Assembly (NCBI GenBank): GCA_017442875.1
Contig: JAFSPN010000002.1
Span: forward strand, 1 to 43,123
Source: Bacilli bacterium
GTDB lineage: Bacteria > Bacillota_I > Bacilli_A > RFN20 > CAG-826
DNA: 43,123 nt
Direction of reading: 5' to 3'
In this document: piece by piece, positions 27,997-43,123 of the stretch
How the letters are laid out: the number at the start of each line of letters is the position of its first letter
Numbering within the stretch: the stretch's first letter is position 1
The notes under the pieces: generated by a model
What the model was told of the DNA's origin: nothing
The model's database searches: none
The model's input: the letters and a program-made list of their open reading frames with translations, nothing else
Program-made: the position numbers and the translations under genes

Positions 27997-30900
27997 ATGA
28001 AAAGTAGACTTTTGCTTTTTGTGTCTTTTCTTTCCACTAGCTTGGCTTTAACAGCCTGTGGTGGATTTGGAGAAGGCGAAGAAAGTGGTGGAGGCAATTC
28101 AATCACTTTGCCAAATACTGCTCAAGAAGCCGCCAACATGTTTTACCAATTAGCGACCAGTACTGGTGTCGAGATTACTTATCGTGCTTACGACGATGAA
28201 AGTAATGAGCCAGAAACAAACACAATTGGTTTCAAAAACGATGTTTTCTGGGTGAAAGAGAATGTTGCCTATAAGAAAGCAGACACAACCTTAGAAATGT
28301 ATGAATATGATGCCACAAAGCAATCATATGAATATCAAGTTTCTGTCACAGAATCAGAACAAACTTCTCTTGATTTGATTTTGAAGAACTTCTCGTCAGT
28401 TTTTTATGCTGGTTATGAATATGCTTCCACACAAGGAATGGGTTCGTTTACTTCTAAGAAAGATGTCACGTTCTTAACTAGACCAGCGACAGAATACACG
28501 CTTGCTTATTCCGATGGTGTTAATCAAGCGAGTTTAAATATTATCTTTGATAACGCTACTGGCATTACCTTAAAGATATACGCTGCCGCCTCTTCTAGTA
28601 GTGATGGTTCTTCTGCTGAATACGAAGTTACTTCATTTGCGATTGGAAATGCTGTTATTGTTCCAACGCTCAATAAGTCATCTGGCCAAGGTGGTGAAGG
28701 TCAAGGTGGTGAAGGCCAAGGTGGACAAACCGATGTTGATTATTTCAACAATAAACTACTCATGTACACCAGCCATGAAAACGCTCCTGATTATGTCAAT
28801 TCACAATTAGGCCTTTTTGCTGACGGCAAATTTGAATTAAAAAGCTTTCAAAATGGCTATCAAATAGTTTTCTTTGGTAAATATGTAGTTGCCGCTTCTA
28901 AAACATCGGCGACGTTGGTGACTGAAAGAGTCTATAAAGATCAAGTCAAAGAAACTTCTTCAATCACACAAACATGGACACTTGATTACTCTGATGGCGC
29001 TTATACACTAGCGGTTTCTAGTAGGAGTAAGGCCTATTACAATGCTTCCGGTGCTGCACCAACTCACTATGTTATTCCAGGTCAGGGTGGAGGCGAAAGT
29101 GATGTTGAAAACTTTGTTAATCACTTCTTTACTTTTGTTAGCCAACAAAACGCTCAAAACTTTGTTAATTCCACAATCGCTTTGTTTGATGATGGCACAT
29201 TTGAAGTTGTAACCACTCAAAACGGAAATCTACTTGTTTATTTAGGAACCTATACCGTTAATGCGAATGATACCGCTGCAACACTAAGCGTGACGAAATA
29301 TTACAGCGCTGCCAGCGGTGCATATACCCATCAAGCAGTTGGCAACTGGTTATTCACACTGCAACAAAACGGCTATGCTTTAGCCATGGCTGGTGGCCCA
29401 ACTGTTATCTACGCTTTATCCAATAGTGCTCCAACACACGCGAATATTCCAGCCGATGAAGGCCAAGGCCAAACCGGTGATGATGCCAAATACAAAGTCA
29501 ATGAAGCGATTTGGAACGAAATGATTGTCAATCGCGGTATTATCAGTTTGGCAAGCAACTTTACGATGATCACAAATAACGCCGATGGTCAAACAAAGTA
29601 TGAATTTGATTCTGGTAAAGTTCACTACACCTTTGCGTCTTCAAGCTTTACTACTGAAATGTTCTATGAATTCACAAGTTTAACGAGTGGTACTTTCTAT
29701 TATAAAAATAACGGTCAATGGGCAAGTCAAGTTGCTCCTGCTGATATGCATTTGACATTTGATGATTATATTGGCGTTTTACCAGTTCCTTATAGCAAAG
29801 TATCATTCAACAGCACCTCATATTACTATGGCTGCAATGAATGGAAAGATGAGCAACAAGATGCTTATCAAAACCCGCGTTTCTTCTTCGAAGAAGGAAA
29901 TTTAATTAAAACGACTTATAAACATTGGGATGTTGAATATCTTTATACATTCAACGAATATGGCACAACATCAGTTACTCTTCCAGAAGTTAGTGGTGGT
30001 CAAAGTGATGAAGATGCAAAATACAAAATTACCTCTTCCACATGGGAAGATATGATTGTTGATGCTGGCCTTGTTTCGTTAGAGAGCAATTTCACCGCAA
30101 TGGTTCGTTCATCCGATTTAAGCGGTGTCAATAAATATGAATTTGATGAAGGTCTTGTTCACAAACTCTATAACGACGGATATGAAGAATATATTGAATT
30201 TCTTACCGAAACAAGCGGAAATAGATATTTAAAGAACGAATCTGGCGCTTGGGCTTCTAGAGAATTCGGTTTCTCTGATAATCTCAGTATCTCTGGATAT
30301 ACGGGAACCCTCTTTCCTCTCTTTAATGACATCAGCAACATCTCATTTAGCCAATTAACATTCAACAAACAAACAAAAGGATATGAACTCAGTTCATGGT
30401 CATATAATGGTGGAAGTACGTTCACCAGCATTTATTTCTCCTTTGTTGATAGCAAATTGATGAAAGTGAGTTATACACTTGATGGTATTAATCACGAAAC
30501 TGAATTCAATAAACATGGCACAACCTCAGTTACTCTTCCAGAAATTGGTAGTGGTGGTGAAGGTGGCCAAACCACATCCAAGTGGCCGGCTGCAGATATC
30601 GCTGCAAAATTAGCTGAATTAGAGCTCAATGTCACTGTTCCTGCTCCAAAAGAAGAATACATTGAAAGCGTCACCGACGAATTCACAGAGGATTATAATG
30701 GTTTATTCATTTCCGTGACCGCTGCTGATGCTAACTATTCCTCAGTCATATTCAGTAGTTTCGTGTCCGGTTTCCAAGGGTTTGTATTAGATGCAACAGC
30801 ATCCAATATCGATGATGGTATTTATGTTCTTTTTAATGAGACACGCGACATTAAGATTACCATGACATATTCAAGAGGAAATCCAACAGTTACAGTTCTT

Positions 30901-31938
30901 ATCGAATGGTATGAAGCCGAACTTGAAAATACATATCCAGTAGATAGCATAGCAGCGTTCTTCAAACAATATGAATTAACAACCGCTCTTCCAAGCCTTG
31001 AAATGGAAGGTGTTGCTTATCATTATGGTCAATCTGAATATGCTGCAATGGCCTATTTGACCATGGCACCAAGTGAAGGCAATACATTAGAGGCTATTGT
31101 TGCTAGTGCAGAATCTGCTCTTACTACAGCAGGTTTCAAAATTGTTTATGTTCCTTCAATGGATGGCCAAGGCGGACTATCAGCAATGTATATTGATCCA
31201 GCTTTGCAATATTATGTTTTCTTCTCAATTGATGCAAGCACTAACGAAGCAACAGCTATCATCGCAGTGGATTCCGAAGGCGAAATGGCGGCCGCTGTGT
31301 CCCTTGATTATCCACAAGACATAGTTGAATCATTTATACCAGAATACACAACAGATACTCTTCCTTCATTAGCGATCGATGGTGCGGCCTATATGATTGG
31401 CGAAGATGGAGATGGTTTCCAATTACAAATAAACTTACAGCCAGGTATGGAAGCTGCAAACATCTTAAGAGACTTAACAACACGCATTGGCCGTGCTGGT
31501 TATATCTTTAACGAAGAAGATGAAGGATATCATTCCGCGAACAATCAAATCGTTATCTATATTAGTAATATTGATAACAAGTTGCTTGAAATCCAAGTCA
31601 GATTCATCGAAGAAGAAGAGCCACCAGTCGAAGAATTTGAAGATGTCACATATACATTTATTTGCGATGACGAATGGGATATCTTTGAATATGAACCAGA
31701 GTTCTATGTTTATGTTTGGAACGAAAAAGGTGAAACAGGCTGGATTGAATTAAGCCTAGTTGAAGGTAAAACATTTACCGCTGAAATCAGCACTAAATGG
31801 ACACATTGCACCGTTGTGAGATTGAATCCAAATGTAGAAGAAGGACAGGAATGGGAACCTAACTGGGATGCTAAGTGGAATCAATCTAAAGACCTCGACT
31901 TAAGTGGTGAGGAAGAAACATTCAATTTCAATTTTTAA
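27997..31938 (+). CDS. Large repeat-containing surface lipoprotein
   Basis: 1313 residues with a lipoprotein signal peptide: basic start MKSR, hydrophobic core, lipobox LTAC with Cys21 as the lipidated residue, then a flexible Gly/Glu linker. Internal repeats are clear: two copies of a roughly 115-residue unit (about 247-360 and 369-485, each ending APTH-x2-IP), two of a roughly 175-residue unit (about 496-668 and 672-849, starting DAKYK and ending GTTSVTLPE), and three related units in 859-1215 (YPxD(I/S)...LPSLxxxGxAY). Gly/Gln/Glu linkers (GGEGQGGEGQGG) separate them. The last 90 residues are Trp/Tyr-rich (FYVYVWNEKGETGW), reminiscent of carbohydrate-binding modules. Function unknown; adhesion or glycan binding is plausible. 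AAGGAG lies 11 nt upstream. Confidence 0.88.
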   Translation: MKSRLLLFVSFLSTSLALTACGGFGEGEESGGGNSITLPNTAQEAANMFYQLATSTGVEITYRAYDDESNEPETNTIGFKNDVFWVKENVAYKKADTTLEMYEYDATKQSYEYQVSVTESEQTSLDLILKNFSSVFYAGYEYASTQGMGSFTSKKDVTFLTRPATEYTLAYSDGVNQASLNIIFDNATGITLKIYAAASSSSDGSSAEYEVTSFAIGNAVIVPTLNKSSGQGGEGQGGEGQGGQTDVDYFNNKLLMYTSHENAPDYVNSQLGLFADGKFELKSFQNGYQIVFFGKYVVAASKTSATLVTERVYKDQVKETSSITQTWTLDYSDGAYTLAVSSRSKAYYNASGAAPTHYVIPGQGGGESDVENFVNHFFTFVSQQNAQNFVNSTIALFDDGTFEVVTTQNGNLLVYLGTYTVNANDTAATLSVTKYYSAASGAYTHQAVGNWLFTLQQNGYALAMAGGPTVIYALSNSAPTHANIPADEGQGQTGDDAKYKVNEAIWNEMIVNRGIISLASNFTMITNNADGQTKYEFDSGKVHYTFASSSFTTEMFYEFTSLTSGTFYYKNNGQWASQVAPADMHLTFDDYIGVLPVPYSKVSFNSTSYYYGCNEWKDEQQDAYQNPRFFFEEGNLIKTTYKHWDVEYLYTFNEYGTTSVTLPEVSGGQSDEDAKYKITSSTWEDMIVDAGLVSLESNFTAMVRSSDLSGVNKYEFDEGLVHKLYNDGYEEYIEFLTETSGNRYLKNESGAWASREFGFSDNLSISGYTGTLFPLFNDISNISFSQLTFNKQTKGYELSSWSYNGGSTFTSIYFSFVDSKLMKVSYTLDGINHETEFNKHGTTSVTLPEIGSGGEGGQTTSKWPAADIAAKLAELELNVTVPAPKEEYIESVTDEFTEDYNGLFISVTAADANYSSVIFSSFVSGFQGFVLDATASNIDDGIYVLFNETRDIKITMTYSRGNPTVTVLIEWYEAELENTYPVDSIAAFFKQYELTTALPSLEMEGVAYHYGQSEYAAMAYLTMAPSEGNTLEAIVASAESALTTAGFKIVYVPSMDGQGGLSAMYIDPALQYYVFFSIDASTNEATAIIAVDSEGEMAAAVSLDYPQDIVESFIPEYTTDTLPSLAIDGAAYMIGEDGDGFQLQINLQPGMEAANILRDLTTRIGRAGYIFNEEDEGYHSANNQIVIYISNIDNKLLEIQVRFIEEEEPPVEEFEDVTYTFICDDEWDIFEYEPEFYVYVWNEKGETGWIELSLVEGKTFTAEISTKWTHCTVVRLNPNVEEGQEWEPNWDAKWNQSKDLDLSGEEETFNFNF

Positions 31939-32034: not shown

Positions 32035-32063
32035 TTGACTAAATAAAAAAATGGTTATATATT
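32035..32063 (+). promoter_or_regulatory. Sigma-A promoter of the first c-di-GMP riboswitch
   Basis: TTGACT (32035-32040), 17-nt spacer, TATATT (32058-32063). The expected start, near 32070, is just upstream of the aptamer. Confidence 0.8.
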
Positions 32064-32070
32064 TATAACC

Positions 32071-32152
32071 GATAAGGGCAAAACCACAGCAATGTGGCGA
32101 CGCAAAACTAGAGGGTCTTTAAATGAAGATAGCCAGTTGCCGGAGAATGAAG
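32071..32152 (+). promoter_or_regulatory. Cyclic-di-GMP-I (GEMM-I) riboswitch 1
   Basis: The GEMM-I layout is complete: GGGCAAAACC (32076-32085), a P2 hairpin CCACA-GCAA-TGTGG with a GNRA loop, GACGCAAAAC just after it, a third helix GGTCTT...AAGATAGCC, and the 3' AGTTGCCGG block. By alignment to the Vibrio Vc2 aptamer as I remember it, the base corresponding to G20 (last G before the C of GGGC) is G, which favours c-di-GMP over cGAMP. The 3' block CCAGTTGCCG is also the 5' arm of the following terminator, so ligand binding should prevent termination (an ON switch, inferred). It controls the 32185-37528 unit. Confidence 0.88.
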
Positions 32153-32176
32153 AATTCGGGACTGGGTTTTTTATTT
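32133..32176 (+). terminator. Riboswitch 1 expression-platform terminator
   Basis: CCAGTT-g-CCG (32133-32142) pairs with CGGGACTGG (32157-32165), followed by GTTTTTTATTT. It competes with the aptamer's 3' strand. Confidence 0.8.
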
Positions 32177-32184
32177 AAAGGCGT

Positions 32185-33330
32185 ATGAAAAAACTAAACA
32201 AGAAAGCAATTAAAATAGTCGCGGCCACTAGTATGGCCATTTTCTCGTTATTAGCGACCATGACAAGTGCGTACGCTTGGTTTCAAAGTACCCTCAATCA
32301 AGGTGGCAACAACGAAGACTTCTATATCAAACGTTTAGATACTCCGGTCACTTCCATTACTATTCATGAATTCTATGGCGAAACAGATGATGGAAGCGCT
32401 AATAGTTTTGCCTTTGATCCGGTTGGCGTTAGTGTTTACGATGGTTCTTTTGACAATAATGCTAAAGTAGTTGAACTCAACAAATACATTCTTGAAAAAC
32501 CAAATCACCCAGTTTTAATTCTTTTCAAAAATGAGGAAGTAAGTGGTTTTGAATCACAAATTAATTTAAAAACAGAATTCTCATATTTGGGTGCTGCCGA
32601 TAATTTCCTTGCTGGTAAGACCAACACCAAAGAAGAACTTAATGCTTTGAGCAAAACACAAAATGGTTATTATCTTGTTGTTACTGACGAAACTCAATCA
32701 AACAAAACATATTTATACCAATATGTTAGTGGTTCTTTACAATCCAAATCATTTGCGACTTATGCTGCTTTAGATACAGCTGCAAATAGAATTGCAGCTA
32801 ACAACAATAAGTATTTCCTCGTCGTCGACGATGAAGAACACGGTGACGTTGCGACTATTTACCAATATAAGGATGCCACAGCTTCATTCGATATGGTTTG
32901 GTGTGCTTTAGGCAATGCATATTACAGCGAAACAAATCCATTGTCATCCGCTGTTCAATTCCATACCTTTACCTTCACTGATGAATTAGAAGATATAGTC
33001 GAGACACGCGATATTCAAGTCGAATCGTTCGATGATCTTGGCCAAGACTATACATACAATAAACAAACTGATAAGGATTGTATTGCCATTCCAACCGCTA
33101 GTTTTACAAATTCAAACAAACATAGTTTTACAAACTTCACAGATGAAGAAACTTTTGATTACAGCAAAGAAATTAACGTTTTCCGTGGTGATGTTACTGG
33201 CGTTACCTATATCGGAATCGTTGTTAACTATGATAAATACGCTCTTGAATACATTTTCTCCCGCAACTTAGGTAACGAAGCTTTAAACGCTGGCTTAGAT
33301 TTCAAGTGCGACTGGATTACGGAGTTCTAA
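32185..33330 (+). CDS. Secreted protein with SipW-dependent-type signal peptide
   Basis: 381 residues; first gene behind riboswitch 1. The N-terminus MKKLNKKAIKI is followed by a hydrophobic stretch (12-29) and Ala-Tyr-Ala-Trp-Phe-Gln (29-34), the motif shared by the other exported proteins of this locus and typical of SipW-processed TasA/camelysin-like proteins. The remainder is polar with beta-strand character, no cysteines in catalytic arrangement and no anchor, ending GLDFKCDWITEF. AAAGG sits only 3 nt from the ATG, so the ribosome-binding site is poor. Likely function: extracellular fibre or matrix component; inference from signal-peptide class and context only. One base separates it from the next gene. 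Confidence 0.8.
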   Translation: MKKLNKKAIKIVAATSMAIFSLLATMTSAYAWFQSTLNQGGNNEDFYIKRLDTPVTSITIHEFYGETDDGSANSFAFDPVGVSVYDGSFDNNAKVVELNKYILEKPNHPVLILFKNEEVSGFESQINLKTEFSYLGAADNFLAGKTNTKEELNALSKTQNGYYLVVTDETQSNKTYLYQYVSGSLQSKSFATYAALDTAANRIAANNNKYFLVVDDEEHGDVATIYQYKDATASFDMVWCALGNAYYSETNPLSSAVQFHTFTFTDELEDIVETRDIQVESFDDLGQDYTYNKQTDKDCIAIPTASFTNSNKHSFTNFTDEETFDYSKEINVFRGDVTGVTYIGIVVNYDKYALEYIFSRNLGNEALNAGLDFKCDWITEF

Positions 33331-33331
33331 T

Positions 33332-36300
33332 ATGAAAAAGAAAACCGTTGGATTCATCGCTCTTGCAGCTATAACTTTCTTTAGTTTAGTTGGTACTGCT
33401 TTCAGCACCATTTCTTGGTTTGTGGCCTCAGTTGTTACTCCGGAATACAAAATCAATGGTAGTTCCGCCGGCGCTTATTTTGCGTATGGTGATGGTAGTG
33501 AACAGCACCCATTTGGCATTTCTATTCCTCGTCACTTATATAACTTATCTTGGCTTCAATACATGGGCCAATTCACAGACAGGCAGTATTATTTCGAATT
33601 AGCTGATTCTGTTCCTGCGGACGGCTTAAATATGGCCAACTATGTTCTTCCACCAATTGGTACGGAAGATAACCCATTCGTTGGCAATTTCAACGGCCAA
33701 GGCAAAATTATTAAAAATTTAACAGTTTCGAATGATGAATCGACTATTTTTAATTCCGATAAACACCCAGATAATACACAAGTCGATTTCACCAACCCAG
33801 AAATAGTGGGTTTGTTTGGCGTTGTCGGTAATTTAGGCGGTGCTTATACAGGCTCATATGATAGCGCAACTAACTCTATTTATGATTTAGGCATTTCTAA
33901 TATCACCGTTCAAACAAAAACAAGCAAAGCTTTAGTCGGTGTTGCTGCTGGTTACGTTGATGCTACTATCAGCAATGTGGCGGTTAACGAATCTACAATT
34001 GACGTCAATACATTGAATACAGCTGCTGTTGACGGCACTAACCTCACTGCGAATTTATCCGATTATGGTGTGGTTGGCTATGCCACAGACACCTATAAGA
34101 AGAGTATTAAAAAAATTGAACAAAACCTTTACGACATTGAAATAGGCGCCAATGCGCAATTCAACGCTCTTGATAGTGGTGATGCCACTGGTTGGGGTGG
34201 TTCTATTAACATGACCGATTTGTATCATCGTCTTTTGAAGTTCAAATCAACCGATAGTGGTAGTTTTGGTTCTACCTCCGGAAACTATTATTATAAGCGC
34301 ACATGGACTTATAATCCTGAAAAGACAAGCTATACAGAATCGGGAGGCAACTATAACAGTTCGGCTTTCCGTTATTACAATACCGATCCTAAAGTTGGTG
34401 TCTATCAAATTGGTAACAGAACTAGTACTAACGCCTTTATGTATTTAAATGGCGGCCAATACATCACCAAACAATACCAGGAGTATAGAGAACATACTGG
34501 CACGATGATTAAATATGGTAGTACCGCTAACAAATTAACTGTTAATAGTTTTACCAATAATAGCGGAACGCTTGGTAATACAACTGGAGATTCTCCAGCA
34601 CTTTGGAGTGTTCCTGCTGGTTCTAGTGGCTATATTTCAACGCAATATTACTACAATGATGGAAACTCAGCTACTACTTATTATTTGTATAATAATAATG
34701 GCACTCTTGGTCTTACAAGTTCTACAAGCACAAGGACAACGTGGTACAAAAGAAGTAATGCTAATGGCATTTGCTATGCGACAACAAATTCCGATAATAG
34801 TGGTTACTATTTAACATTTACAGGAACAAGCTGGGCACTCGCTCCATTTACAGCAACTCCTAATACTCCAGAAGTTTCTAGACCTACTGAAGCCGTCGAA
34901 GAACCAGATCCGTTCACTGAAACAGAGCCTCAAGAGCCAACTCCAAAACCAGTGGATTATGGTTATCAACTTTATTATACCGATGGCAGTACCCGCCATT
35001 ATATTACTGGAACGAATAATGCTTTGGGCCATAGCACCAATCCTTTCCAAGGCGGTTGGACCTGGAATAGTAGCGATAGAACAATTCAATTAACGGGCAC
35101 AAATTATTATTTGAGACCTAGATCCGGTAATAACACATATTCTTTAAACTTAAGCACAACAAATAACTATCGAACTTGGTCTGGACGCACCGAAAATGAC
35201 GATGGAACGTTTAAATTCTACAGAACACGTTCTTCCGGCTGGTCAACATACTACCGTTATTTGCAATATAACAATAATAATGGTTTTACTATTTCTGGTG
35301 ACCAAAACTCAAGCTATAGTACGCGTACTGATTTCTCATACGAGCGTATGGCCTCTTATAATGGAAATTATTATTCTTACGATGCTGCTTTTGAGGCTTA
35401 TCATCAGACCCAAGCCTATCTTGATTATCTTTCTGAAAAGCAAGACTATGATGCTGCTCTAGCAGAACACAACGCAGCAGTTACCGCATATAACAATTAT
35501 CTTGACGCTGTTGATCAATGGGAACAATACGATTCGCAGTTAGAGCAACACAATACCGCTTCTGCGGCTTCCTATTGCTTATCACAAGATAATAGAGACG
35601 CTCAGAATCCAGTTATTGGACCAGAAAAATATATTGATAACGCCCAAACAACAAGCGGCATGGAATATGGACAAGACAACACAACTTATTTCCCACTTAA
35701 CGTTGTTGCGGATGGTTCACAAACAGACATTACAAAGTATTATCCAAAAGATAGTAATACAGGTTATGTGACCGTTGGTTCAAGGTATGATGCCAACTAT
35801 ACTTGGGCATATGACGACAATACTTATTATAGAAGAAGTAACATGCGTGTGTCTGAGTACGCTATTTCAAACATCAGTTCCAGCTATACACCAGCAAACG
35901 GCTTCTCAACAATATATACATTAGATCAATCAAACGATGTCCAAGAGATTGATGATCCAGATGTTTATCAAAGATATTCTGATTCTTTGGAATCATTAGG
36001 CACAATTCTTGGAAAGAATAGTAGTAATGTTTACGGTTTGCACTTTATGGAATCCACTATTTCTAAGGATGCAGTGGTGGAAGCTAAATACGTTATGATT
36101 AATGGTCATGAATATACCAATTACCAGTTACCAGTCAATTCTATTGACTTTAACTTAAAAGAGAAAGGTTATATTAACTTGTTTGCCGGCATGTACTTCT
36201 CTGACAACGACTCTTTGTTCTCTTTGCATCAAGTCATTAGAAATAACGATAATACGATTAAAGAAATCAAAGAAATCAAAGAAGTTTACACTGATGGTGT

Positions 36301-37528
36301 TACCAACCACTCTGTTATCTATAAATACACAGATAACAAGTACTCTGCTGGCTATTCATTCAGTTCGACTTCTAAAACACCGTTAACACCTGGTCAAGAC
36401 GTCAATGCGGTTGATTTAGCCACTTTACAAAGCGGTTACACTCTTGCGTTTAAAACAACGCAATTAACTAACCACAACCATGATACGCACGCGATTATCA
36501 ATTCTGATTTCGATCAGACCAATCAATCAGGTAAGATTTTCTACTTTGAAGTGCCAATGAATTCTGGTGAATTCTGTCTTGGTTCTGTCGAAGGTGGTAC
36601 TGGTGGATATTTGTTCTACCTCGATATCGGTGCTAATGCGGCCAAAACGCAAAGAACAACGATTTATGAACACTATAAAGAAATTAGAAAAGTGTTTGAT
36701 TATCCAGCCGGTATCGCTATTGTTCCTGTTTCAACAGTGGCGGATAACCTTGAAAACTCAACAACTTTAGATGATACCAATACCGCTAACTTCTTAATCG
36801 TTGCCGGTACAAGTGGTACGATTACTGTTACACGCGCACAAAACGACGTTGAAGTCGCTAGGACTGGAGGACTTTTGAGCGGTGCTTCAGGAGCGGGCGC
36901 TAAGCCAACGCTGATTGGCGATTTAATGTGGGATAGTGAGCACTTGCAATACAACATTCACGATCCAGGAGGAAGCAACCTTTCCGATGAAATAACTTCT
37001 GAAGACACAGTAACTGAAGTCAGAAGACTTCAATACTACGATTGGAACGTCAACCTTAACGAATTGACCATTACTCGTATTACTGACACATCGACTGATG
37101 GTGGAACCAACTGGGTGAGAGACTATTATCAAGAATTTGCTGATGGAACTTCAACTACAGTATTCGCCAATATGAAGATCTATCACTCTGTGACTGGTGT
37201 TAAATACGCCACTCAAAGTGACGCTGATACCATCAACACCTATGTTGGCAACGATGAGTCTAGCGTGAACAACACCTTAATCTTCAAGGTTACATATCAA
37301 GAAGACGCTGGTGAGAACATCATCTACGAATGGGTGCTTGAGATGGCAATCGATGGCAACGCTACGGGCCGATACTATATCTTCCAAGACTATGTCTTCG
37401 AAGCGACGCTAGATAATGGCGAAGTAGTGTTAACTGTCAAAACGCTTGGTAGTAAGACTATAAAGATCAACTCTACGACTATTACACAAGCTGGACAAAC
37501 AGTGACACTAACGCCAACAAATCCATAA
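33332..37528 (+). CDS. Giant Tyr/Asn/Ser/Thr-rich surface protein with GLUG-like region and SipW-type N-terminus
   Basis: 1398 residues. Residues 1-32 resemble the neighbours' signal region (hydrophobic 7-24, then STISWF). At about 95-160 a NPFVGNFNGQGKIIKNLTVS...GLFGVVGNLGG stretch resembles GLUG-type repeats of bacterial surface proteins. Residues about 320-650 are strikingly low-complexity, rich in Tyr, Asn, Ser, Thr and Gly, with a Pro/Glu-Thr linker near 510-545. At about 690-760 is a helical Ala/Asp/Gln/Tyr-rich segment that may form a coiled coil. The C-terminal third is beta-like with no LPxTG or other anchor. It is cotranscribed with the 381-residue gene from riboswitch 1 and followed by a terminator. 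Probably a long extracellular adhesive or structural protein. Confidence 0.8.
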   Translation: MKKKTVGFIALAAITFFSLVGTAFSTISWFVASVVTPEYKINGSSAGAYFAYGDGSEQHPFGISIPRHLYNLSWLQYMGQFTDRQYYFELADSVPADGLNMANYVLPPIGTEDNPFVGNFNGQGKIIKNLTVSNDESTIFNSDKHPDNTQVDFTNPEIVGLFGVVGNLGGAYTGSYDSATNSIYDLGISNITVQTKTSKALVGVAAGYVDATISNVAVNESTIDVNTLNTAAVDGTNLTANLSDYGVVGYATDTYKKSIKKIEQNLYDIEIGANAQFNALDSGDATGWGGSINMTDLYHRLLKFKSTDSGSFGSTSGNYYYKRTWTYNPEKTSYTESGGNYNSSAFRYYNTDPKVGVYQIGNRTSTNAFMYLNGGQYITKQYQEYREHTGTMIKYGSTANKLTVNSFTNNSGTLGNTTGDSPALWSVPAGSSGYISTQYYYNDGNSATTYYLYNNNGTLGLTSSTSTRTTWYKRSNANGICYATTNSDNSGYYLTFTGTSWALAPFTATPNTPEVSRPTEAVEEPDPFTETEPQEPTPKPVDYGYQLYYTDGSTRHYITGTNNALGHSTNPFQGGWTWNSSDRTIQLTGTNYYLRPRSGNNTYSLNLSTTNNYRTWSGRTENDDGTFKFYRTRSSGWSTYYRYLQYNNNNGFTISGDQNSSYSTRTDFSYERMASYNGNYYSYDAAFEAYHQTQAYLDYLSEKQDYDAALAEHNAAVTAYNNYLDAVDQWEQYDSQLEQHNTASAASYCLSQDNRDAQNPVIGPEKYIDNAQTTSGMEYGQDNTTYFPLNVVADGSQTDITKYYPKDSNTGYVTVGSRYDANYTWAYDDNTYYRRSNMRVSEYAISNISSSYTPANGFSTIYTLDQSNDVQEIDDPDVYQRYSDSLESLGTILGKNSSNVYGLHFMESTISKDAVVEAKYVMINGHEYTNYQLPVNSIDFNLKEKGYINLFAGMYFSDNDSLFSLHQVIRNNDNTIKEIKEIKEVYTDGVTNHSVIYKYTDNKYSAGYSFSSTSKTPLTPGQDVNAVDLATLQSGYTLAFKTTQLTNHNHDTHAIINSDFDQTNQSGKIFYFEVPMNSGEFCLGSVEGGTGGYLFYLDIGANAAKTQRTTIYEHYKEIRKVFDYPAGIAIVPVSTVADNLENSTTLDDTNTANFLIVAGTSGTITVTRAQNDVEVARTGGLLSGASGAGAKPTLIGDLMWDSEHLQYNIHDPGGSNLSDEITSEDTVTEVRRLQYYDWNVNLNELTITRITDTSTDGGTNWVRDYYQEFADGTSTTVFANMKIYHSVTGVKYATQSDADTINTYVGNDESSVNNTLIFKVTYQEDAGENIIYEWVLEMAIDGNATGRYYIFQDYVFEATLDNGEVVLTVKTLGSKTIKINSTTITQAGQTVTLTPTNP

Positions 37529-37533
37529 AAAAC

Positions 37534-37566
37534 GAGAGACTTTATAAAAATAAGGTCTCTCTTTTC
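37534..37566 (+). terminator. Intrinsic terminator of the first riboswitch operon
   Basis: GAGAGAC (37534-37540) / GTCTCTC (37555-37561), then TTTTCTTT. Confidence 0.8.
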
Positions 37567-38001
37567 TTTACTTGTTTTTTTGTTAGTTAGATTCCTTCTT
37601 ACGTATGCGTGATAAATCCTTATTAATAAATATATCTATCGATCACAAAAAAGGCGCTATAAGAGCGGAAAAATACTGATTGGATAAATATAAAGTCTGA
37701 TAGCGAAAGAGCTTCAAGAAGTCGCTTAGAAAGATTTTAATAATAGCCAATTAAACAACTATTTCGTAAGCGATGTTTCAGGGCCAAAAAAGAAGTAATA
37801 GTGGGGCGAAAACTTTGAAGAAGGATTTAAAAAGTAATCTTCTAATTTCTGTCTAGTAATTACAAAGATCTGAAGCACAAAAACAGCCTAAAAAATAGTA
37901 AAAAACTTATGAAAAAATAAAAAAACGAAGATAACAAAAGGCATATTTTTTACATTTTTTACTCAAAATCATATTTATATAATAAATATGTAAAAAAATA
38001 T
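37567..38001 (+). other. Non-coding AT-rich stretch with inverted repeats
   Basis: No credible ORF or known RNA is seen. It holds a hairpin CGCT-ataag-AGCG near 37654, an inverted repeat GAAGGATT...AATCTTC near 37817-37842, and a perfect palindrome CATATTTAT-ata-ATAAATATG (about 37972-37992) directly upstream of the next promoter, flanked by TTTTTTAC and GTAAAAAA. The last is a candidate operator. Confidence 0.4.
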
Positions 38002-38030
38002 TTGACATTATTATGATGATTTTCTATCAT
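38002..38030 (+). promoter_or_regulatory. Sigma-A promoter of the 296-residue secreted protein gene
   Basis: Perfect -35 TTGACA (38002-38007), 17-nt spacer, TATCAT (38025-38030). The expected start, near 38037, gives a leader of about 120 nt. Confidence 0.75.
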
Positions 38031-38036
38031 TATTAT

Positions 38037-38157
38037 GCAAAGCGAAAGCAACAAGGACGTCCCAAACCTTATTGACGACAAGCGATGCATGAAATCCTAT
38101 CATCCACTCAGTTTAGATATAAGTTGAGTGATTTTGTCGTTTATAAGGAGTTATTAT
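38037..38157 (+). promoter_or_regulatory. Long, probably structured 5' leader of unknown type
   Basis: The leader can form GC-GAAA-GC, AAGG...CCTT, and an ACGAC...GTCGT stem that encloses a CACTCA/TGAGTG hairpin, ending just before AAGGAG. It does not match the GEMM-I aptamers of the neighbouring units nor a c-di-GMP-II pattern I know. Regulatory function is inference. Confidence 0.35.
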
Positions 38158-39048
38158 ATGAAAAAATCAAAAATTATCATTCCTGCCTTAGGTATGTTGA
38201 TTCTTTCTACCGCTGCTTCTGTCACAGGAACTGTTGCATGGTTCACCACAGTTTCATCAGCAACAGCCAATATTACAAGCTTTGCTGTTAGAAAACTCGG
38301 TGGTGACTTAAGCTACGTCGTTGCCGCAGGTGTAGGTACAAAGAAGGTTGATTCTTCTGCTACCTCATCTATTACATTAGATGGTGATAACCCAGCGTTA
38401 TGTGATGCTTCGTTCAACCATACAACCAAGCACCCATGGAAAGCTAACAGTACAGCTAGCGCATTTACAGAAATTACAACTGAAAACGTTGCTAACTGGG
38501 GTGTTACAAGCACTACACCAGCACAAGTTACATATTATGCTGTTTCCTGGTCATACACATTCACATACACCTTCGGTGGTGATAGCACACCAATGAATCT
38601 CTATTTCGGTAGTGCTGATTCCACAATTACCCCAACAGTTAACAAAGCTGCTGAAGGTACCCAAACAGAACAAACCTACAAAGGTTTCAGAATCGCATTC
38701 CTCTGCGATACCAGCTCTAGGGCTGTTGTTTGGGCAAAGAATCAAACTTCCGCAAATTGCCACTATGTCGTTGCGAGCAATGATCAAACCGGTGCATATA
38801 GCAATGTTAACAGCACAAGTGCTGCTGGTAACTTAATCGATTCTACTGGTATTGCTACAATCAGTGAAAACGCTACAGGTACACAAACCCGTACAGACTA
38901 TCTTGGTCAATTCACCTCTGGCTCTAACACACTTGTTGTTAAATGTGTTGCTTGGTATGAAGGTACCGATCCAAACGTTATTAATGGTTCTGAAATGGAT
39001 ACCGTTGCTGCGGCGTTGACATTCTATACCAGACCACAAGCTGCGTAG
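38158..39048 (+). CDS. Secreted TasA-like protein with SipW-dependent-type signal peptide
   Basis: 296 residues from ATG 38158, which has AAGGAG 8 nt upstream; an in-frame ATG at 38128 lies inside the leader and is rejected. The N-terminus is short and basic (MKKSK), hydrophobic 6-20, then SVTGTVAWFTT (21-31), the clearest copy of the G-T-x-A-W-F motif. The mature part is Thr/Ser/Ala-rich and beta-like. The end, VVKCVAWYEGTDPNV...ALTFYTRP, parallels the C-terminal strands of the other locus members (IWLEGxD...). It is monocistronic with its own strong promoter and terminator. Likely a structural extracellular protein; not proven. Confidence 0.82.
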   Translation: MKKSKIIIPALGMLILSTAASVTGTVAWFTTVSSATANITSFAVRKLGGDLSYVVAAGVGTKKVDSSATSSITLDGDNPALCDASFNHTTKHPWKANSTASAFTEITTENVANWGVTSTTPAQVTYYAVSWSYTFTYTFGGDSTPMNLYFGSADSTITPTVNKAAEGTQTEQTYKGFRIAFLCDTSSRAVVWAKNQTSANCHYVVASNDQTGAYSNVNSTSAAGNLIDSTGIATISENATGTQTRTDYLGQFTSGSNTLVVKCVAWYEGTDPNVINGSEMDTVAAALTFYTRPQAA

Positions 39049-39074
39049 GAATAATTAACCTATTAAGATACAAA

Positions 39075-39099
39075 AACCGCTCATCTGGGCGGTTTTTTG
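39075..39099 (+). terminator. Intrinsic terminator
   Basis: AACCGC (39075-39080) / GCGGTT (39089-39094) followed by TTTTTTG. Confidence 0.85.
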
Positions 39100-39149
39100 T
39101 TTTATTCAAAACAAAGTTTTAACCTTAAAATTGATACTACAAAAATTGT

Positions 39150-39177
39150 TTGGTATTTTGTTTAATAATGATATAAA
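39150..39177 (+). promoter_or_regulatory. Promoter of the 124-residue membrane protein gene
   Basis: TTGGTA (39150-39155), 16-nt spacer, TATAAA (39172-39177). Confidence 0.5.
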
Positions 39178-39214
39178 ATAGCCTCGTATACGTATCTAAC
39201 GGCACTGTATTTTT

Positions 39215-39589
39215 ATGAAAAATTTTCCAAAACCATTATTTATTGCCTTGATCGTTCTAGACTTAGGATTGACCATCTTTTTGTTTGTCATTAGCATTAT
39301 TATGCTATCAACAATGGTTGGTTCTGCTACGACCGCAGAAGCGATTGCTAACTCTACTGGTTTGATCAATTTCTTAATTAGAGATACTGCTAGTGGTGGT
39401 TTTGTCTACTTAGGTGCCTTCGTTATTCCTTTATTTGTTTTATTAGCTTTAAACATCGTTGGCTTAGTTCTTTACGTACGTAAAACAACCAAAAAAGAAC
39501 CCGCTAAATTACAAGATCTTACTGATGAGCAAAAAGAAGCTCTCAGACAAGAACTCCTTAAAGATTTACAAAATGGAGATAATAAATAA
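39215..39589 (+). CDS. Small membrane protein of unknown function
   Basis: 124 residues with two clear membrane helices (about 8-32 and 62-86), an external loop between, and a charged tail LTDEQKEALRQELLKDLQNG. No family is recognised. No Shine-Dalgarno sequence precedes the ATG. It lies alone, with its own promoter and terminator, between two exported-protein units, so it might assist secretion or anchoring; this is only positional. Confidence 0.75.
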   Translation: MKNFPKPLFIALIVLDLGLTIFLFVISIIMLSTMVGSATTAEAIANSTGLINFLIRDTASGGFVYLGAFVIPLFVLLALNIVGLVLYVRKTTKKEPAKLQDLTDEQKEALRQELLKDLQNGDNK

Positions 39590-39594
39590 GAAGG

Positions 39595-39618
39595 AACGCA
39601 GGGATGCGTTTTTTTCTT
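39595..39618 (+). terminator. Intrinsic terminator
   Basis: AACGCA (39595-39600) / TGCGTT (39605-39610) with a GGGA loop and a T run. Confidence 0.85.
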
Positions 39619-39767
39619 AATTTTTAACTAATATAATTTATTTTGATAAATTTTATAAAAATGTATTGCGTGTTTAATTTTGTTGTGATAAGTTATATTC
39701 GAGTAAAAAGCAAAACCGAAGTGATTCGGCGACGCAAAACTACAGGGTCTTATATAAGATAGCCAGC

Positions 39768-39802
39768 AACCTCAATTGTTATAAGCAGTTGAGGTTTTAT
39801 AT
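39768..39802 (+). terminator. First terminator hairpin inside riboswitch 2
   Basis: AACCTCAATTG (39768-39778) / CAGTTGAGGTT (39786-39796), 11 pairs with one G-T, loop of 7, followed by TTATATTT. The U tract is moderate. Confidence 0.65.
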
Positions 39803-39820
39803 TTCTATCCTATACTAGAT

Positions 39821-39885
39821 AGCCAGTTGCCTTGGGGGTGAAATAAATCCCGCCGTGAATGGATGATAGGCACTGGCTTTTTATT
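39821..39885 (+). terminator. Second terminator of riboswitch 2
   Basis: AGCCAGT-t-GCCT (39821-39832) pairs with AGGCACTGGCT (39868-39878), with an inner GGG/CCC helix, followed by TTTTTATTT. It matches the riboswitch 1 platform in using the CCAGTTGCC block. Confidence 0.75.
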
Positions 39886-39948
39886 TCGAACCCATTGGGA
39901 CAAAAAACAAATTTTACTTAACTAACAGGAGTAAAGAAAGAAAACACT

Positions 39949-40785
39949 ATGTACGATTTATTGTATGTGAGAAAACGTAGAAGAAGGAGAATTGCCGCAC
40001 TGGTAAGTTTAATCTCAGCGATTGGGGTTACTTCATTGGTGGTGGTGTCCTTTCTTGGACGATTCGTTGGGACATTCACGGTATCGCTTACTAATTCAGC
40101 CGTGAGACTGTCGCTCAGTGAAAAACAAGCGTTCCAGGATACAACGTCTTATCTCCTCATCGATAAGCTCAAACCATTTGAAGAGAACACTTACAGAAAT
40201 CTTCCTGGTGCTGATATTCTCGATAATGAAGATACCGAATACGATTACGGCAAAAACATTAGCGAGTTGAACGGTCAAGAAACACTCCAATACTTCAAAT
40301 ACACATTCTATGTTAAGAACGTTGGAAGTACGATCGCTCAATACAACATGAATATCAAAATCGATGAAAAGAGTAAATCGAATGACGGAACAAAGAGAAC
40401 ACTTGACGAGACAATGCGTGTGATGGTGTTCGAAAATGATCCGAGATCAGATGAAGAAACACACGATTTCAAGGTCTATGCCAAACCAAGTCATGAAGTC
40501 AATTATGATAAATTCGGCAATAGAACCTACCAAGAATTCATTTCTGAGTTTGATCCAAAAACAAACAAAGAAGACGACGATCATCCACTTGCTGATGCTT
40601 TCCTAGCTGACGGTAAAACGGTCGCAAAGTACAGCGTAGATAATTTCGGAAAAAGTGATATTAGGAGATACACTCTCGTTATCTGGTTAGAAGGAGCTGA
40701 TCCTGATTCAGATAATAAAAAGAACGCCCCTGTTGGTGCAACAATTAAATTAGGAGTTGAAATAACTGCATATGAAAATGAATAA
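39949..40785 (+). CDS. Exported protein of the riboswitch 2 operon with Arg-rich N-terminus
   Basis: 278 residues. The N-terminus has RKRRRRR at 8-14, a hydrophobic helix at about 16-35 and GRFVGTFTVSLTNSAVRLSLS (37-57). There a GT motif occupies the place of GT-x-AWF in its neighbours, so it is a divergent member or one kept in the membrane. The body is Asp/Lys/Glu-rich; the end IWLEGADPDSDNKK...IKLGVEITAYE resembles the C-terminal strands of the downstream proteins. AGGAG is 17 nt from the ATG, unusually far. The end overlaps the next gene by 14 nt. Confidence 0.8.
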   Translation: MYDLLYVRKRRRRRIAALVSLISAIGVTSLVVVSFLGRFVGTFTVSLTNSAVRLSLSEKQAFQDTTSYLLIDKLKPFEENTYRNLPGADILDNEDTEYDYGKNISELNGQETLQYFKYTFYVKNVGSTIAQYNMNIKIDEKSKSNDGTKRTLDETMRVMVFENDPRSDEETHDFKVYAKPSHEVNYDKFGNRTYQEFISEFDPKTNKEDDDHPLADAFLADGKTVAKYSVDNFGKSDIRRYTLVIWLEGADPDSDNKKNAPVGATIKLGVEITAYENE

Positions 40786-41776
40786 GAAAAAGATTTTAGT
40801 TTCTACCCTCGCATTAGCGATGGGTGCTGGCCTTGCCGGTTCAGTTTCTGGTACTATGGCATGGTTCCAATACTCAACAAGAGCACAAGCTGCCTACATT
40901 GGTTCAGTCGCTCACTGTTCTGAAGCTTTAGAAATCTCCTGTGATGGTGGTACTTCTTGGGCAACAGATTTAAATAGCACAGTCATGAATACAAGCAAAG
41001 TTGGTGGTACAGATATGGAACCAATTACTGCTGGTGCTATTGATGCCGATGATGCTCTTCCAACAAAATTCTATAAGAATCCAATTTATCAATTCATAAA
41101 TGAAGCAAATTGGGGAGAAGCCGACAGCACAAACTATGTTCAATTCAATTTGAAATTCCGTGTTAAAGATGTCAATTCTCCAGTGGGTTACTTATCTGGT
41201 CATCATCTTTATTTAACAGATTTAACAATCGCAAACGAAAATGGAGCAACCGATTTATACAAAGCAGTCAGAGTTCATTTCGCCGTTGGCACATCTTACA
41301 AACTATTTGCTAGAAACAATGATTTAGATAACGCAAATATCGAAACATCCACTTCTGGCAACCTCGACTTAAATAATAATGGTAGATTTGATAAAGGTCC
41401 TGGTTATGAATGGGATGATCGTGGTGCTGATTTAGTCTATGGTACAGTCGGAACACAAACTGCTCTCAATGCAAACAAATCTGGCGTCTTAGCTAATGAT
41501 GCAAATCCACGCTCTATCGTTGCTAACAGCGGCGACTTAGGCGAAATCACTGGTGGCGAAAGCGGTTTAGCAGTCAAAGTTACAATCTGGTTAGAAGGTT
41601 GGACAAAATTAGGCAACGATGTTGCTGGTGTCGACGCTAATAGTGATGGCGATTACGACGATGATGGTGACACACAACCAACAAATGCCGCTAAATGGGA
41701 TGCTGCAACCTATATCAACAAAGCCTTTAAAGTTGGTATGAGATTCGCAACCGAAGTTCACGGCGACGCTGAATAA
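40772..41776 (+). CDS. Secreted TasA-like protein, paralogue of the following gene
   Basis: 334 residues. MKMNKKK, hydrophobic 8-25, then SGTMAWFQYSTRAQAAYIGS (26-45), the SipW-dependent-type signature. The sequence is close to the next protein over the N-terminus (SGT-x-AW-x-QYSTR) and the C-terminus (VTIWLEGWTK...FKVGMRFATEV), showing a tandem duplication. An Asp-rich stretch near 285-305 (DANSDGDYDDDGDTQ) could bind calcium. No anchor motif. The start overlaps the preceding gene; ATG 40778 is an alternative. Likely a repeated fibre-type subunit. Confidence 0.82.
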   Translation: MKMNKKKILVSTLALAMGAGLAGSVSGTMAWFQYSTRAQAAYIGSVAHCSEALEISCDGGTSWATDLNSTVMNTSKVGGTDMEPITAGAIDADDALPTKFYKNPIYQFINEANWGEADSTNYVQFNLKFRVKDVNSPVGYLSGHHLYLTDLTIANENGATDLYKAVRVHFAVGTSYKLFARNNDLDNANIETSTSGNLDLNNNGRFDKGPGYEWDDRGADLVYGTVGTQTALNANKSGVLANDANPRSIVANSGDLGEITGGESGLAVKVTIWLEGWTKLGNDVAGVDANSDGDYDDDGDTQPTNAAKWDAATYINKAFKVGMRFATEVHGDAE

Positions 41777-41793
41777 TTAAGTTTTTAAATATT

Positions 41794-41825
41794 ACTATGC
41801 CTGCATCATGTGATGTGGGCATAGT
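41794..41825 (+). repeat. Intercistronic hairpin
   Basis: ACTATGCC (41794-41801) / GGCATAGT (41818-41825) with an inner GCATCA/TGATGT extension makes a nearly continuous stem without a U tract. It may stabilise or process the mRNA between the two paralogous genes or partly terminate. Confidence 0.6.
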
Positions 41826-41853
41826 GTAATTCTCTGTTTAGGAGGAAAATACT

Positions 41854-43080
41854 ATGAAAAAGAATTTATCAAAAGTGATAGTTCCAACTTTAGCCATAGC
41901 AATCGGAGCCGCTATTGCGGGTTCAATCTCAGGTACTGTGGCTTGGTATCAATATTCCACCAGAGTGAATGTTGCCTATTTAGGCACATCCGCTGGTACA
42001 AGTGGTAATTTGTTCTTAAGAATCAAAGGAACAAACCCATGGCTAACCAACTTATCTTATTCTGCTATAGCTGATTATTTACAAGGCAAAGGCATCGGAC
42101 AAAAGGTTCAACCAATTACCTCTGGTAATATGGGTGAAGATGACGATTTACCAAGAGTTGGTGGTACAGGCACTGACAAATATAATCCAGTGTTCTATCA
42201 AAACCCAATTCAAGAAAAAGAATACGAAACATCTCCATATTCAAGATGGCTTAAGGCTGATAATTCTATGTATGTCACAATTCCACTCGAATTAGCATAC
42301 ATTGAAAAAGACAATAAGTTATCCGCCAATAACATTGATGAAGAATATCTTGCAAAAGATGTCTATTTATCAGATCTTCTTATTCAAGAAGACTATTCCA
42401 ATAATGGCAATACTGATCCATTAAAAGATAGAGAAGATTTATCTTCTGCTGTTCGTGTTCACATTCGTTCATATCTTGATACAGACACATCAGAAAATCA
42501 TGCTACTTCTGCGATTAACAGATTAATCTCTAAAGATGGCGGAACAATTCTTACACACGGATATTTGCCATTAGGTGATGGTATTCACGATGACTCAGTT
42601 ACTTTGGGTGATGATCCAGGTGCAATGTATGACTTCGGCAAAGACAACGAAACTAAAAAAGTTGTTTACGGCGAAGGTTTACAAAAGTCTTATTCAAATG
42701 GTACCGCCGTTAAAGATGGTAGTTATGTTGATAAAGATGGTTTAAACCCAACTGCAGAAAAAGTCTATCCAACAGTTGTTAAATCTGTTCTTGATGCAAA
42801 CGACAAAAAGACTAACGTTTTAGATGAAGACGACTTTGAATACGACACAGATAGTGGTTCTGTTTCCAAAAAGATTGGCACAACAATTGCTCACAAAGAT
42901 GGTGAAGACGAAAACGCAGGTAAATACCTCCAAGTCGAATTAACCATTTGGGTTGAAGGCTGGCAAAAATTGTTAGTCAAAGGCAGCAATCCTGCTGAAT
43001 ACAAATCAATTTGGGATTCTGACGACTATATTGGTTCCAAATTCAATGTTGGTTTCCAATTCGCTGTTCAAGCTGAATAA
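41854..43080 (+). CDS. Secreted TasA-like protein, second paralogue
   Basis: 408 residues with AGGAGG 9 nt upstream of the ATG, the best ribosome-binding site of the operon. N-terminus MKKNLSKVI, hydrophobic 8-25, then SGTVAWYQYSTRVNVAYLGTS (26-46). The mature part is longer than in its paralogue, Asp- and Lys-rich. It ends LTIWVEGWQK...FNVGFQFAVQAE, the same C-terminal strands. It is the last gene visible; 43 nt after it the window ends without a clear terminator, so the operon may continue. Confidence 0.83.
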   Translation: MKKNLSKVIVPTLAIAIGAAIAGSISGTVAWYQYSTRVNVAYLGTSAGTSGNLFLRIKGTNPWLTNLSYSAIADYLQGKGIGQKVQPITSGNMGEDDDLPRVGGTGTDKYNPVFYQNPIQEKEYETSPYSRWLKADNSMYVTIPLELAYIEKDNKLSANNIDEEYLAKDVYLSDLLIQEDYSNNGNTDPLKDREDLSSAVRVHIRSYLDTDTSENHATSAINRLISKDGGTILTHGYLPLGDGIHDDSVTLGDDPGAMYDFGKDNETKKVVYGEGLQKSYSNGTAVKDGSYVDKDGLNPTAEKVYPTVVKSVLDANDKKTNVLDEDDFEYDTDSGSVSKKIGTTIAHKDGEDENAGKYLQVELTIWVEGWQKLLVKGSNPAEYKSIWDSDDYIGSKFNVGFQFAVQAE

Positions 43081-43123
43081 TTAATAAAAAAATATTTGCA
43101 TAGAGTAAAGTCACATACACGTA

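Follow-up and report, generated by a model that had tools for sequence, protein, structure and literature searches.

The closest described counterparts of the locus reported here are the tapA-sipW-tasA operon of Bacillus subtilis, in which each TasA subunit hands its N-terminal strand to the next (PMC9674648), the sipW-bsaABCRSD locus of Clostridium perfringens (PMC7395162), the CoCoPALM systems (PMC11090510) and, for its control, the pilM riboswitch of Geobacter (PMC9262584). We analysed a stretch of 43,123 bases (the window) from an uncultured Bacilli bacterium (assembly GCA_017442875.1; 1.32 Mb, 68 contigs, 95% complete), which is the whole of contig JAFSPN010000002.1 (C2). Its last 11 kilobases carry genes for exported proteins with SipW-type signals, two of them with a predicted fold like that of TasA, the biofilm-fibre protein of Bacillus, in three units, two of which are headed by riboswitches of the cyclic di-GMP (c-di-GMP) class. 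We think it likely that this locus is a cyclic-dinucleotide-controlled surface-fibre system, with the exported proteins as the putative fibre formers.

An initial annotation of the window had placed six exported proteins in this block, and all six open reading frames (ORFs) were found where it put them. They lie on the + strand, as do all riboswitch and leader elements given below, and are named here by their first base. In order, they encode a protein of 381 amino acids with the SipW-type signal TSAYAWF (32185..33330), a large protein of 1,398 amino acids with the divergent signal TISWF (33332..37528), a 296-amino-acid protein with the signal TGTVAWF (38158..39048), the membrane-anchored, 278-amino-acid product of the main operon's first gene, in which GTF replaces AWF (39949..40785), a 334-amino-acid protein with the SipW-type signal SGTMAWFQYSTR (40772..41776), and its 408-amino-acid paralogue (E = 1e-23) with the signal SGTVAWYQYSTR (41854..43080). 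The motifs read in the same annotation were also present. AW[FY] follows the hydrophobic core in four proteins (YAWF in 32185, VAWF in 38158, MAWF in 40772 and VAWY in 41854), divergent versions stand in 33332 (SWF) and 39949 (GTF), and a common C-terminal W-x-E-G pattern is shared by 38158 (AWYEGTDP), 39949 (IWLEGADP), 40772 (IWLEGW) and 41854 (IWVEGW). When all ORFs of the window were scanned with a loose motif (a hydrophobic core, then a small residue, any residue, alanine or serine, and an aromatic residue), the scan picked 32185, 33332, 38158, 40772 and 41854, and its sole other match was a spurious 94-amino-acid ORF on the minus strand. Pfam and NCBIfam yielded no usable match, whether the exported proteins were searched one by one or as families; 33332, for which Pfam has no match, may be adhesin-like. 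Homologues of 39949 were present in 91 fetched loci, Clostridia included, and this protein is a possible fibre anchor or initiator.

To compare these proteins with TasA at the level of structure, we modelled 40772 and 38158 with AlphaFold from 45 and 32 sequences, respectively. Both models (predicted local distance difference test, pLDDT, 78.9 and 73.9) are beta sandwiches whose N-terminal stretch of about 40 residues, with the AWF motif inside it, is of low confidence. A Foldseek search against 350,542 PDB chains ranked the TasA fibre 8aur first for each model, with E = 0.054 and a probability of 0.28 for 40772, and E = 1.4e-3 and a probability of 0.97 for 38158. VIA-align also put 8aur at the top of each list, with best Z-scores of 6.7 (40772) and 7.1 (38158), which lie below 8, where a score may mirror a merely common arrangement; next behind 8aur came other TasA entries and archaeal donor-strand filaments (7pnb, 7ueg and 9p0a). 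The predicted folds appear to be TasA-like beta sandwiches rather than unrelated ones. These scores are modest, and what gives them weight is that two dissimilar families, in different units of the locus, agree on 8aur. Profiles compared with PDB sequences found no TasA, and the only PDB sequence match of the 40772 family was an S-layer protein, at E = 0.15. That match would suit an alternative in which the exported proteins are SipW-processed surface proteins, S-layer-like or adhesive, that make no donor-strand fibres and have the sandwich as a common secreted fold; the modest scores, the frequency of beta sandwiches among secreted proteins and the size of 33332, which is much bigger than TasA, point the same way. 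We consider this alternative unlikely: it leaves aside the shared first rank of 8aur with other donor-strand filaments next, the presence of SipW and an anchor-like first gene in one operon, and the disorder of the N-terminal region in both monomer models, as expected of a donor strand.

Both of the GEMM-I riboswitches in the initial annotation scored above the RF01051 gathering score of 35 bits (Rfam). The aptamer of riboswitch 1 lies at 32067..32144 (62.7 bits, E = 4.7e-10) and that of riboswitch 2, with its first 3′ strand, at 39699..39774 (44.3 bits); RF01051 has no further match in the genome. The two aptamers differ at ligand-contact position 20: riboswitch 1 has G there, a base associated with c-di-GMP specificity, and riboswitch 2 has A. 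Because A in this place has been linked to aptamers of the cyclic AMP-GMP (c-AMP-GMP) type (PMC6274999, PMC9481103), the ligand of riboswitch 2 may be c-AMP-GMP instead of c-di-GMP. Taken further, the main operon would be chiefly under c-AMP-GMP (GEMM-Ib type), and the two riboswitches of the locus would read two different messengers. Position 20 is indeed A in 19 of the 24 sampled main-operon leaders, and the same ON-switch geometry is seen in the c-GAMP-responsive pilM riboswitch (PMC9262584). However, A and G interchange at position 20 among close leader relatives, the position was mapped by ourselves from the covariance-model alignment, no c-AMP-GMP synthase was identified, and the operon itself carries an EAL protein, which is a c-di-GMP enzyme. 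We consider it rather unlikely that c-AMP-GMP is the chief control of the main operon. The enzymes of cyclic-dinucleotide turnover that the initial annotation proposed to look for are present: a genome-wide profile search gave ten matches to GGDEF and six to EAL, all above cut-off, so the genome can probably both make and degrade the c-di-GMP messenger.

Both riboswitches are predicted to be transcriptional ON switches, because the 5′ arm of a terminator takes up the 3′ strand of the aptamer; an ON arrangement of this kind is known from the pilM riboswitch (PMC9262584). The terminator of riboswitch 1, a hairpin followed by a U-run (32133..32172), overlaps the aptamer 3′ strand with its 5′ arm by 12 nucleotides, and keeping the aptamer folded costs 2.5 kcal/mol in a transcript reaching base 32158 and 10 kcal/mol at 32168, when the terminator strand is out. 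Riboswitch 2 has a first 3′ strand at 39763-39774, to which RF01051 aligns, and a terminator 1 at 39768..39800. A second candidate 3′ strand, GATAGCCAGTTGCC (39818..39831), is the one used by the alignment of RF03167 to 39700-39835 (43 bits, E = 5.6e-9, under the gathering score of 59), and terminator 2 is formed by GCCAGTTGCC with GGCACTGGC, then a U-run (39822..39882). One GEMM-I 5′ half with two candidate 3′ strands and a terminator between them is kept in at least eight leaders, including that of the window, and the doubled strands are possibly two serial checkpoints served by one aptamer half. Of 83 riboswitches, 47 had a terminator whose 5′ arm reached 5 or more nucleotides into the aptamer, compared with 6-13 when the downstream sequence was shuffled. 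Just upstream of riboswitch 1, at window positions 27997-31938, lies a predicted lipoprotein of 1,313 amino acids with internal repeats and no Pfam match.

The genes that follow the 41854 homologue in relatives include those for a 505-amino-acid AAA+ protein, a coiled-coil partner, a signal peptidase and an EAL protein, and their counterparts in the window's own genome form the start of contig C11 (locus L110). This locus encodes two more SipW-type exported proteins (402 and 386 amino acids, from the motif scan), the AAA+ protein, a 965-amino-acid partner, a 264-amino-acid SipW-type peptidase and a 516-amino-acid EAL protein, and further a nucleosidase-like protein and a protein of about 1,020 amino acids with a weaker EAL match. 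The end of C2 and the start of C11 both lie inside an inverted repeat (GAGTAAAGTCACATACACGTA / CACGTATACATGTGGCTTTACTC; window 43100-43123 and L110:1-40) between two operon genes, and have CACGTA in common, a 6-base overlap that was spotted by eye on the contig ends, the scripted overlap search having begun at 10 bases. Given the synteny in relatives and this junction, it is very likely that C2 and C11 are adjacent and that the operon runs on into C11.

The sipW gene that the initial annotation suggested seeking in the genome was found in this continuation, as the next gene after the partner (L110:6818-7612), its product matching NF046067 and TIGR02228 below the cut-offs. The Ser-His pair of the peptidase (SM ... 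HR) is conserved, with S69, M70 and H132 invariant in 29 sequences. The genome search with TIGR02228 had missed this gene, which was reached only through the neighbouring ATPase; the first matches of that search, two other peptidase-like genes on contig C17, are not the operon's SipW. As a separate observation, a second SipW-like peptidase gene adjoins one for a 267-amino-acid exported protein (SFALYQNMGNS) in a small locus of its own (L012:1336-2797; G000:C17), without a Pfam match. The AAA+ protein matches AAA_5 above cut-off, finds no entries in PDB other than those of McrB (5e-4) up to an E of 0.5, and, as read from its sequence, contains a hydrophobic (membrane) segment and TANNDD, an NxD-type motif. 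DUF2357 was matched by 6 of 18 homologues of the partner (best E = 8e-9), the genome's own copy being without a match. We take the gene set of ATPase, partner and SipW to be the barely described CoCoPALM arrangement, as it comprises a membrane-anchored McrB-like AAA+ protein with an NxD-type motif, a DUF2357 partner (by way of homologues and not of the own copy) and an adjacent gene of the signal-peptidase family. Since Type IV restriction is the best-known setting of McrB/DUF2357 pairs (PMC11090510), the pair could be a defence module merely hitchhiking in the operon. We judge this very improbable: loci of Bacilli and Clostridia keep the order of ATPase, partner and signal peptidase at 41-85% identity, membrane segments are present in the ATPase, and its occurrence goes with that of the riboswitch. 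The first EAL protein (516 amino acids) matches EAL at 2e-66 with recognizable EAL, DDFG, KIDK and AEGVD motifs, so that it is likely to be active; the second appears degenerate.

The association of riboswitches with a SipW-type locus, as the initial annotation had described it for the window, recurs across the family. RF01051 was found in 110 of 224 family genomes (19 of 35 genera), and orthologues of the ATPase, defined by a threshold of E < 1e-105 that we set in the interval separating high from low scores, in 104. Riboswitch and ATPase occurred together in 92 genomes, the riboswitch alone in 18, the ATPase alone in 12 and neither in 102; at the level of genera, counted by hand from the riboswitch and ATPase listings, 17 had both, 2 and 3 had only one, and 13 had neither (p = 3e-5). 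Where an ATPase gene shared its contig with a listed riboswitch (57 genes), the riboswitch lay upstream on the same strand, at a distance of 1-7 kb, in 48. A gene of the SipW type or the 39949 type followed within 6 kb downstream of 72 of 82 sampled riboswitches, and several of the remaining ones head an ATPase operon with a divergent first gene; a background count of AWF motifs (51 of 799) was inflated by overlapping loci and was left unused. The named relatives are uncultured Bacilli, Erysipelotrichaceae or Bacillales metagenome-assembled genomes (MAGs), many from ruminant and other animal guts. Related loci, at 41-49% identity and encoding SipW and AWF/AWL proteins, also occur in Clostridia MAGs, and a c-di-GMP-I riboswitch lies upstream in three of seven scanned Clostridia loci. 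All of these counts take no account of shared ancestry. Three further observations were made in this survey. Some c-di-GMP-I riboswitches precede proteins of 491 and 530 amino acids without AWF, possibly signalling proteins (L057 near 2121, L080 near 89426). Family members without the riboswitch often hold distant ATPase paralogues of about 420-690 amino acids (E ~1e-67 to 1e-101), perhaps a sister system under other control. A contig titled Gammaproteobacteria (L170, JAILNJ010000173.1) carries the operon's ATPase at 61% identity and is probably a mislabelled or contaminated MAG.

The middle unit (38158-39589), which includes a small membrane protein of 124 amino acids conserved beside 38158 (39215..39589, + strand), has no riboswitch. 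It has instead its own leader RNA with its own terminator (38040..38157), which is conserved in relatives and corresponds to no Rfam family. In riboswitch-2 leaders, the motifs GGATGATAGG (39861..39870) and TTGGGACA (39895..39902) are invariant and unexplained by pairing within the leader; RNAalifold on 40 such leaders gave just ten pairs, with no double-sided changes. What they might be for became apparent only through comparison with the middle-unit leader. There, motif I, GTCCCAAA (38059..38066), is complementary to TTGGGAC, within TTGGGACA, and motif II, CCTATCATCC (38096..38105), is the exact reverse complement of GGATGATAGG; GTCCCAA lies in an apparent hairpin loop and CCTATCATCC abuts the terminator. 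The order of the two reverse-complementary motif pairs fits an antiparallel duplex. Swapping partners among genomes weakened the pairing (p = 0.0028 and 0.0036, jointly 0.0002; 29 distinct leader pairs, in a permutation that ignores shared ancestry), and duplex energies were better than those of shuffled leaders in 29 of 29 pairs (median z = -4.2). In the L178 clade both helices have changed on both sides, to GGATAATAGG with CCTATTGTCC and TTAGGGAC with GTCCCTAA; imperfect leader pairs also exist (L079, L098). The two leaders are on opposite strands in 4 of the 29 pairs, and therefore any pairing there would necessarily be in trans.

This complementarity between leaders suggests RNA-RNA cross-talk. 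It is possible, although we put it somewhat short of an even chance, that the riboswitch-2 leader, once its ligand allows read-through, pairs in trans with the middle-unit leader and relieves the terminator of the middle unit, or conversely that the main operon is the target of the terminated middle-unit leader, working as a small RNA; both parts of the fibre system would then be set by a single riboswitch. The main rival is that the motifs are sites of one DNA- or RNA-binding protein in opposite orientation, with no pairing between the leaders: the reverse-complemented middle-unit leader shows the motif order of the riboswitch-2 leader, as for two sites of one factor. This is conceivable if doubtful, given that the deviations in motif II (L076, L138, L158 and L178) all retain G-U or Watson-Crick pairing, double-sided in one clade, that the spacing of the motifs is unequal between the two leaders, and that motif I lies within a hairpin loop, with both motifs downstream of the likely promoter.

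Together, these data suggest how the system might work. The exported proteins would be made with SipW-type signals and cut by the operon's SipW-type peptidase, and the subunits would most likely polymerise extracellularly, exchanging donor strands in the fashion of TasA, with the disordered N-terminal stretch of the monomer models as the strand that is donated. The candidate for a membrane anchor or initiator is 39949, and 33332 and 32185 could together provide an adhesive component; the membrane McrB-like AAA+ protein and its DUF2357-type partner may drive or gate assembly. With the ligand absent, a terminator is predicted to capture the aptamer 3′ strand, and with the ligand present transcription would proceed; if c-di-GMP is the ligand, the operon's EAL protein would lower it and close a negative feedback loop. 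Pairing of the middle-unit leader at two sites with the riboswitch-2 leader could couple the units.

Besides the limits given above for the Z-scores and the genome counts, several results weigh against this proposal. The SipW-signal model TIGR04088 had no match among the window proteins up to E = 10 (one Clostridia homologue reached E = 0.39, below cut-off), and the TasA/camelysin family PF12389 had none among the window proteins up to E = 1 or among 32 homologues of 38158. The Foldseek TM-scores are low (0.21-0.36). The peptidase falls below the curated cut-offs of both NF046067 (E = 1.2e-7, 31.5 of 190 bits) and TIGR02228 (E = 1.4e-5, 25 of 51.85 bits), and in box E the usual GDN is replaced by SGIN in most Bacilli members of the homologue set. 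For the adjacency of C2 and C11 the evidence is synteny and the 6 bases shared at an inverted repeat, and in the energy model terminator 1 of riboswitch 2 hardly competes with the aptamer. As for the initial annotation, its SipW-type export signals are upheld by the motifs in the proteins and the sipW gene in the operon continuation but not by TIGR04088, and likeness to TasA by two predicted sandwiches that rank 8aur first but not by a sequence match to PF12389. Because membership of the curated family fails at the sequence level, ‘TasA-like’ is used here on the basis of fold ranking and context.

The locus joins TasA-like SipW-type export, direct cyclic-dinucleotide riboswitch control and an operon with an McrB/DUF2357 pair and a c-di-GMP phosphodiesterase, which were unjoined in the literature searched. 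We found no paper tying SipW or TasA to c-di-GMP riboswitch control, which is weak evidence, as subscription journals were mostly uncovered. The locus also hints at the cargo of CoCoPALM systems, and provides a case in which mutual pairing of leader RNAs can be tested, in common but uncultured gut Bacilli.

Among known systems, archaeal TasA-like donor-strand pili (7ueg, 7pnb) rank near the top as structural neighbours of either model. We know of no riboswitch or SipW operon of such kind for these archaeal pili. The pilM c-GAMP riboswitch of Geobacter has the GEMM-I fold, is an ON switch and has a mutually exclusive terminator and aptamer, as predicted here, and it likewise stands before an appendage gene, that of a pilus; it differs in organism and appendage, and has one 3′ strand and no partner leader (PMC9262584). 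CoCoPALM systems likewise consist of a membrane McrB-like GTPase, a coiled-coil DUF2357 partner and a neighbour of the signal-peptidase family; the paper merely names them, and its main text is without TasA-like cargo or c-di-GMP (PMC11090510). The sipW-bsaABCRSD locus of C. perfringens also combines SipW with several secreted proteins, one of which forms filaments outside the cell; it differs in its two-component system and temperature control, and no riboswitch or McrB-like ATPase is described for it (PMC7395162). The tapA-sipW-tasA operon of B. subtilis shares with our locus SipW-type signals, a dedicated SipW peptidase and, by prediction, the TasA-like sandwich with an N-terminal stretch suited to donor-strand exchange (PMC9674648). 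The locus described here differs from it in having many paralogous subunits of about 300-400 amino acids without a PF12389 match, in adding an McrB-like ATPase, a DUF2357 partner and an EAL protein, and in its control, which would be by riboswitch here and is by SinR in B. subtilis.

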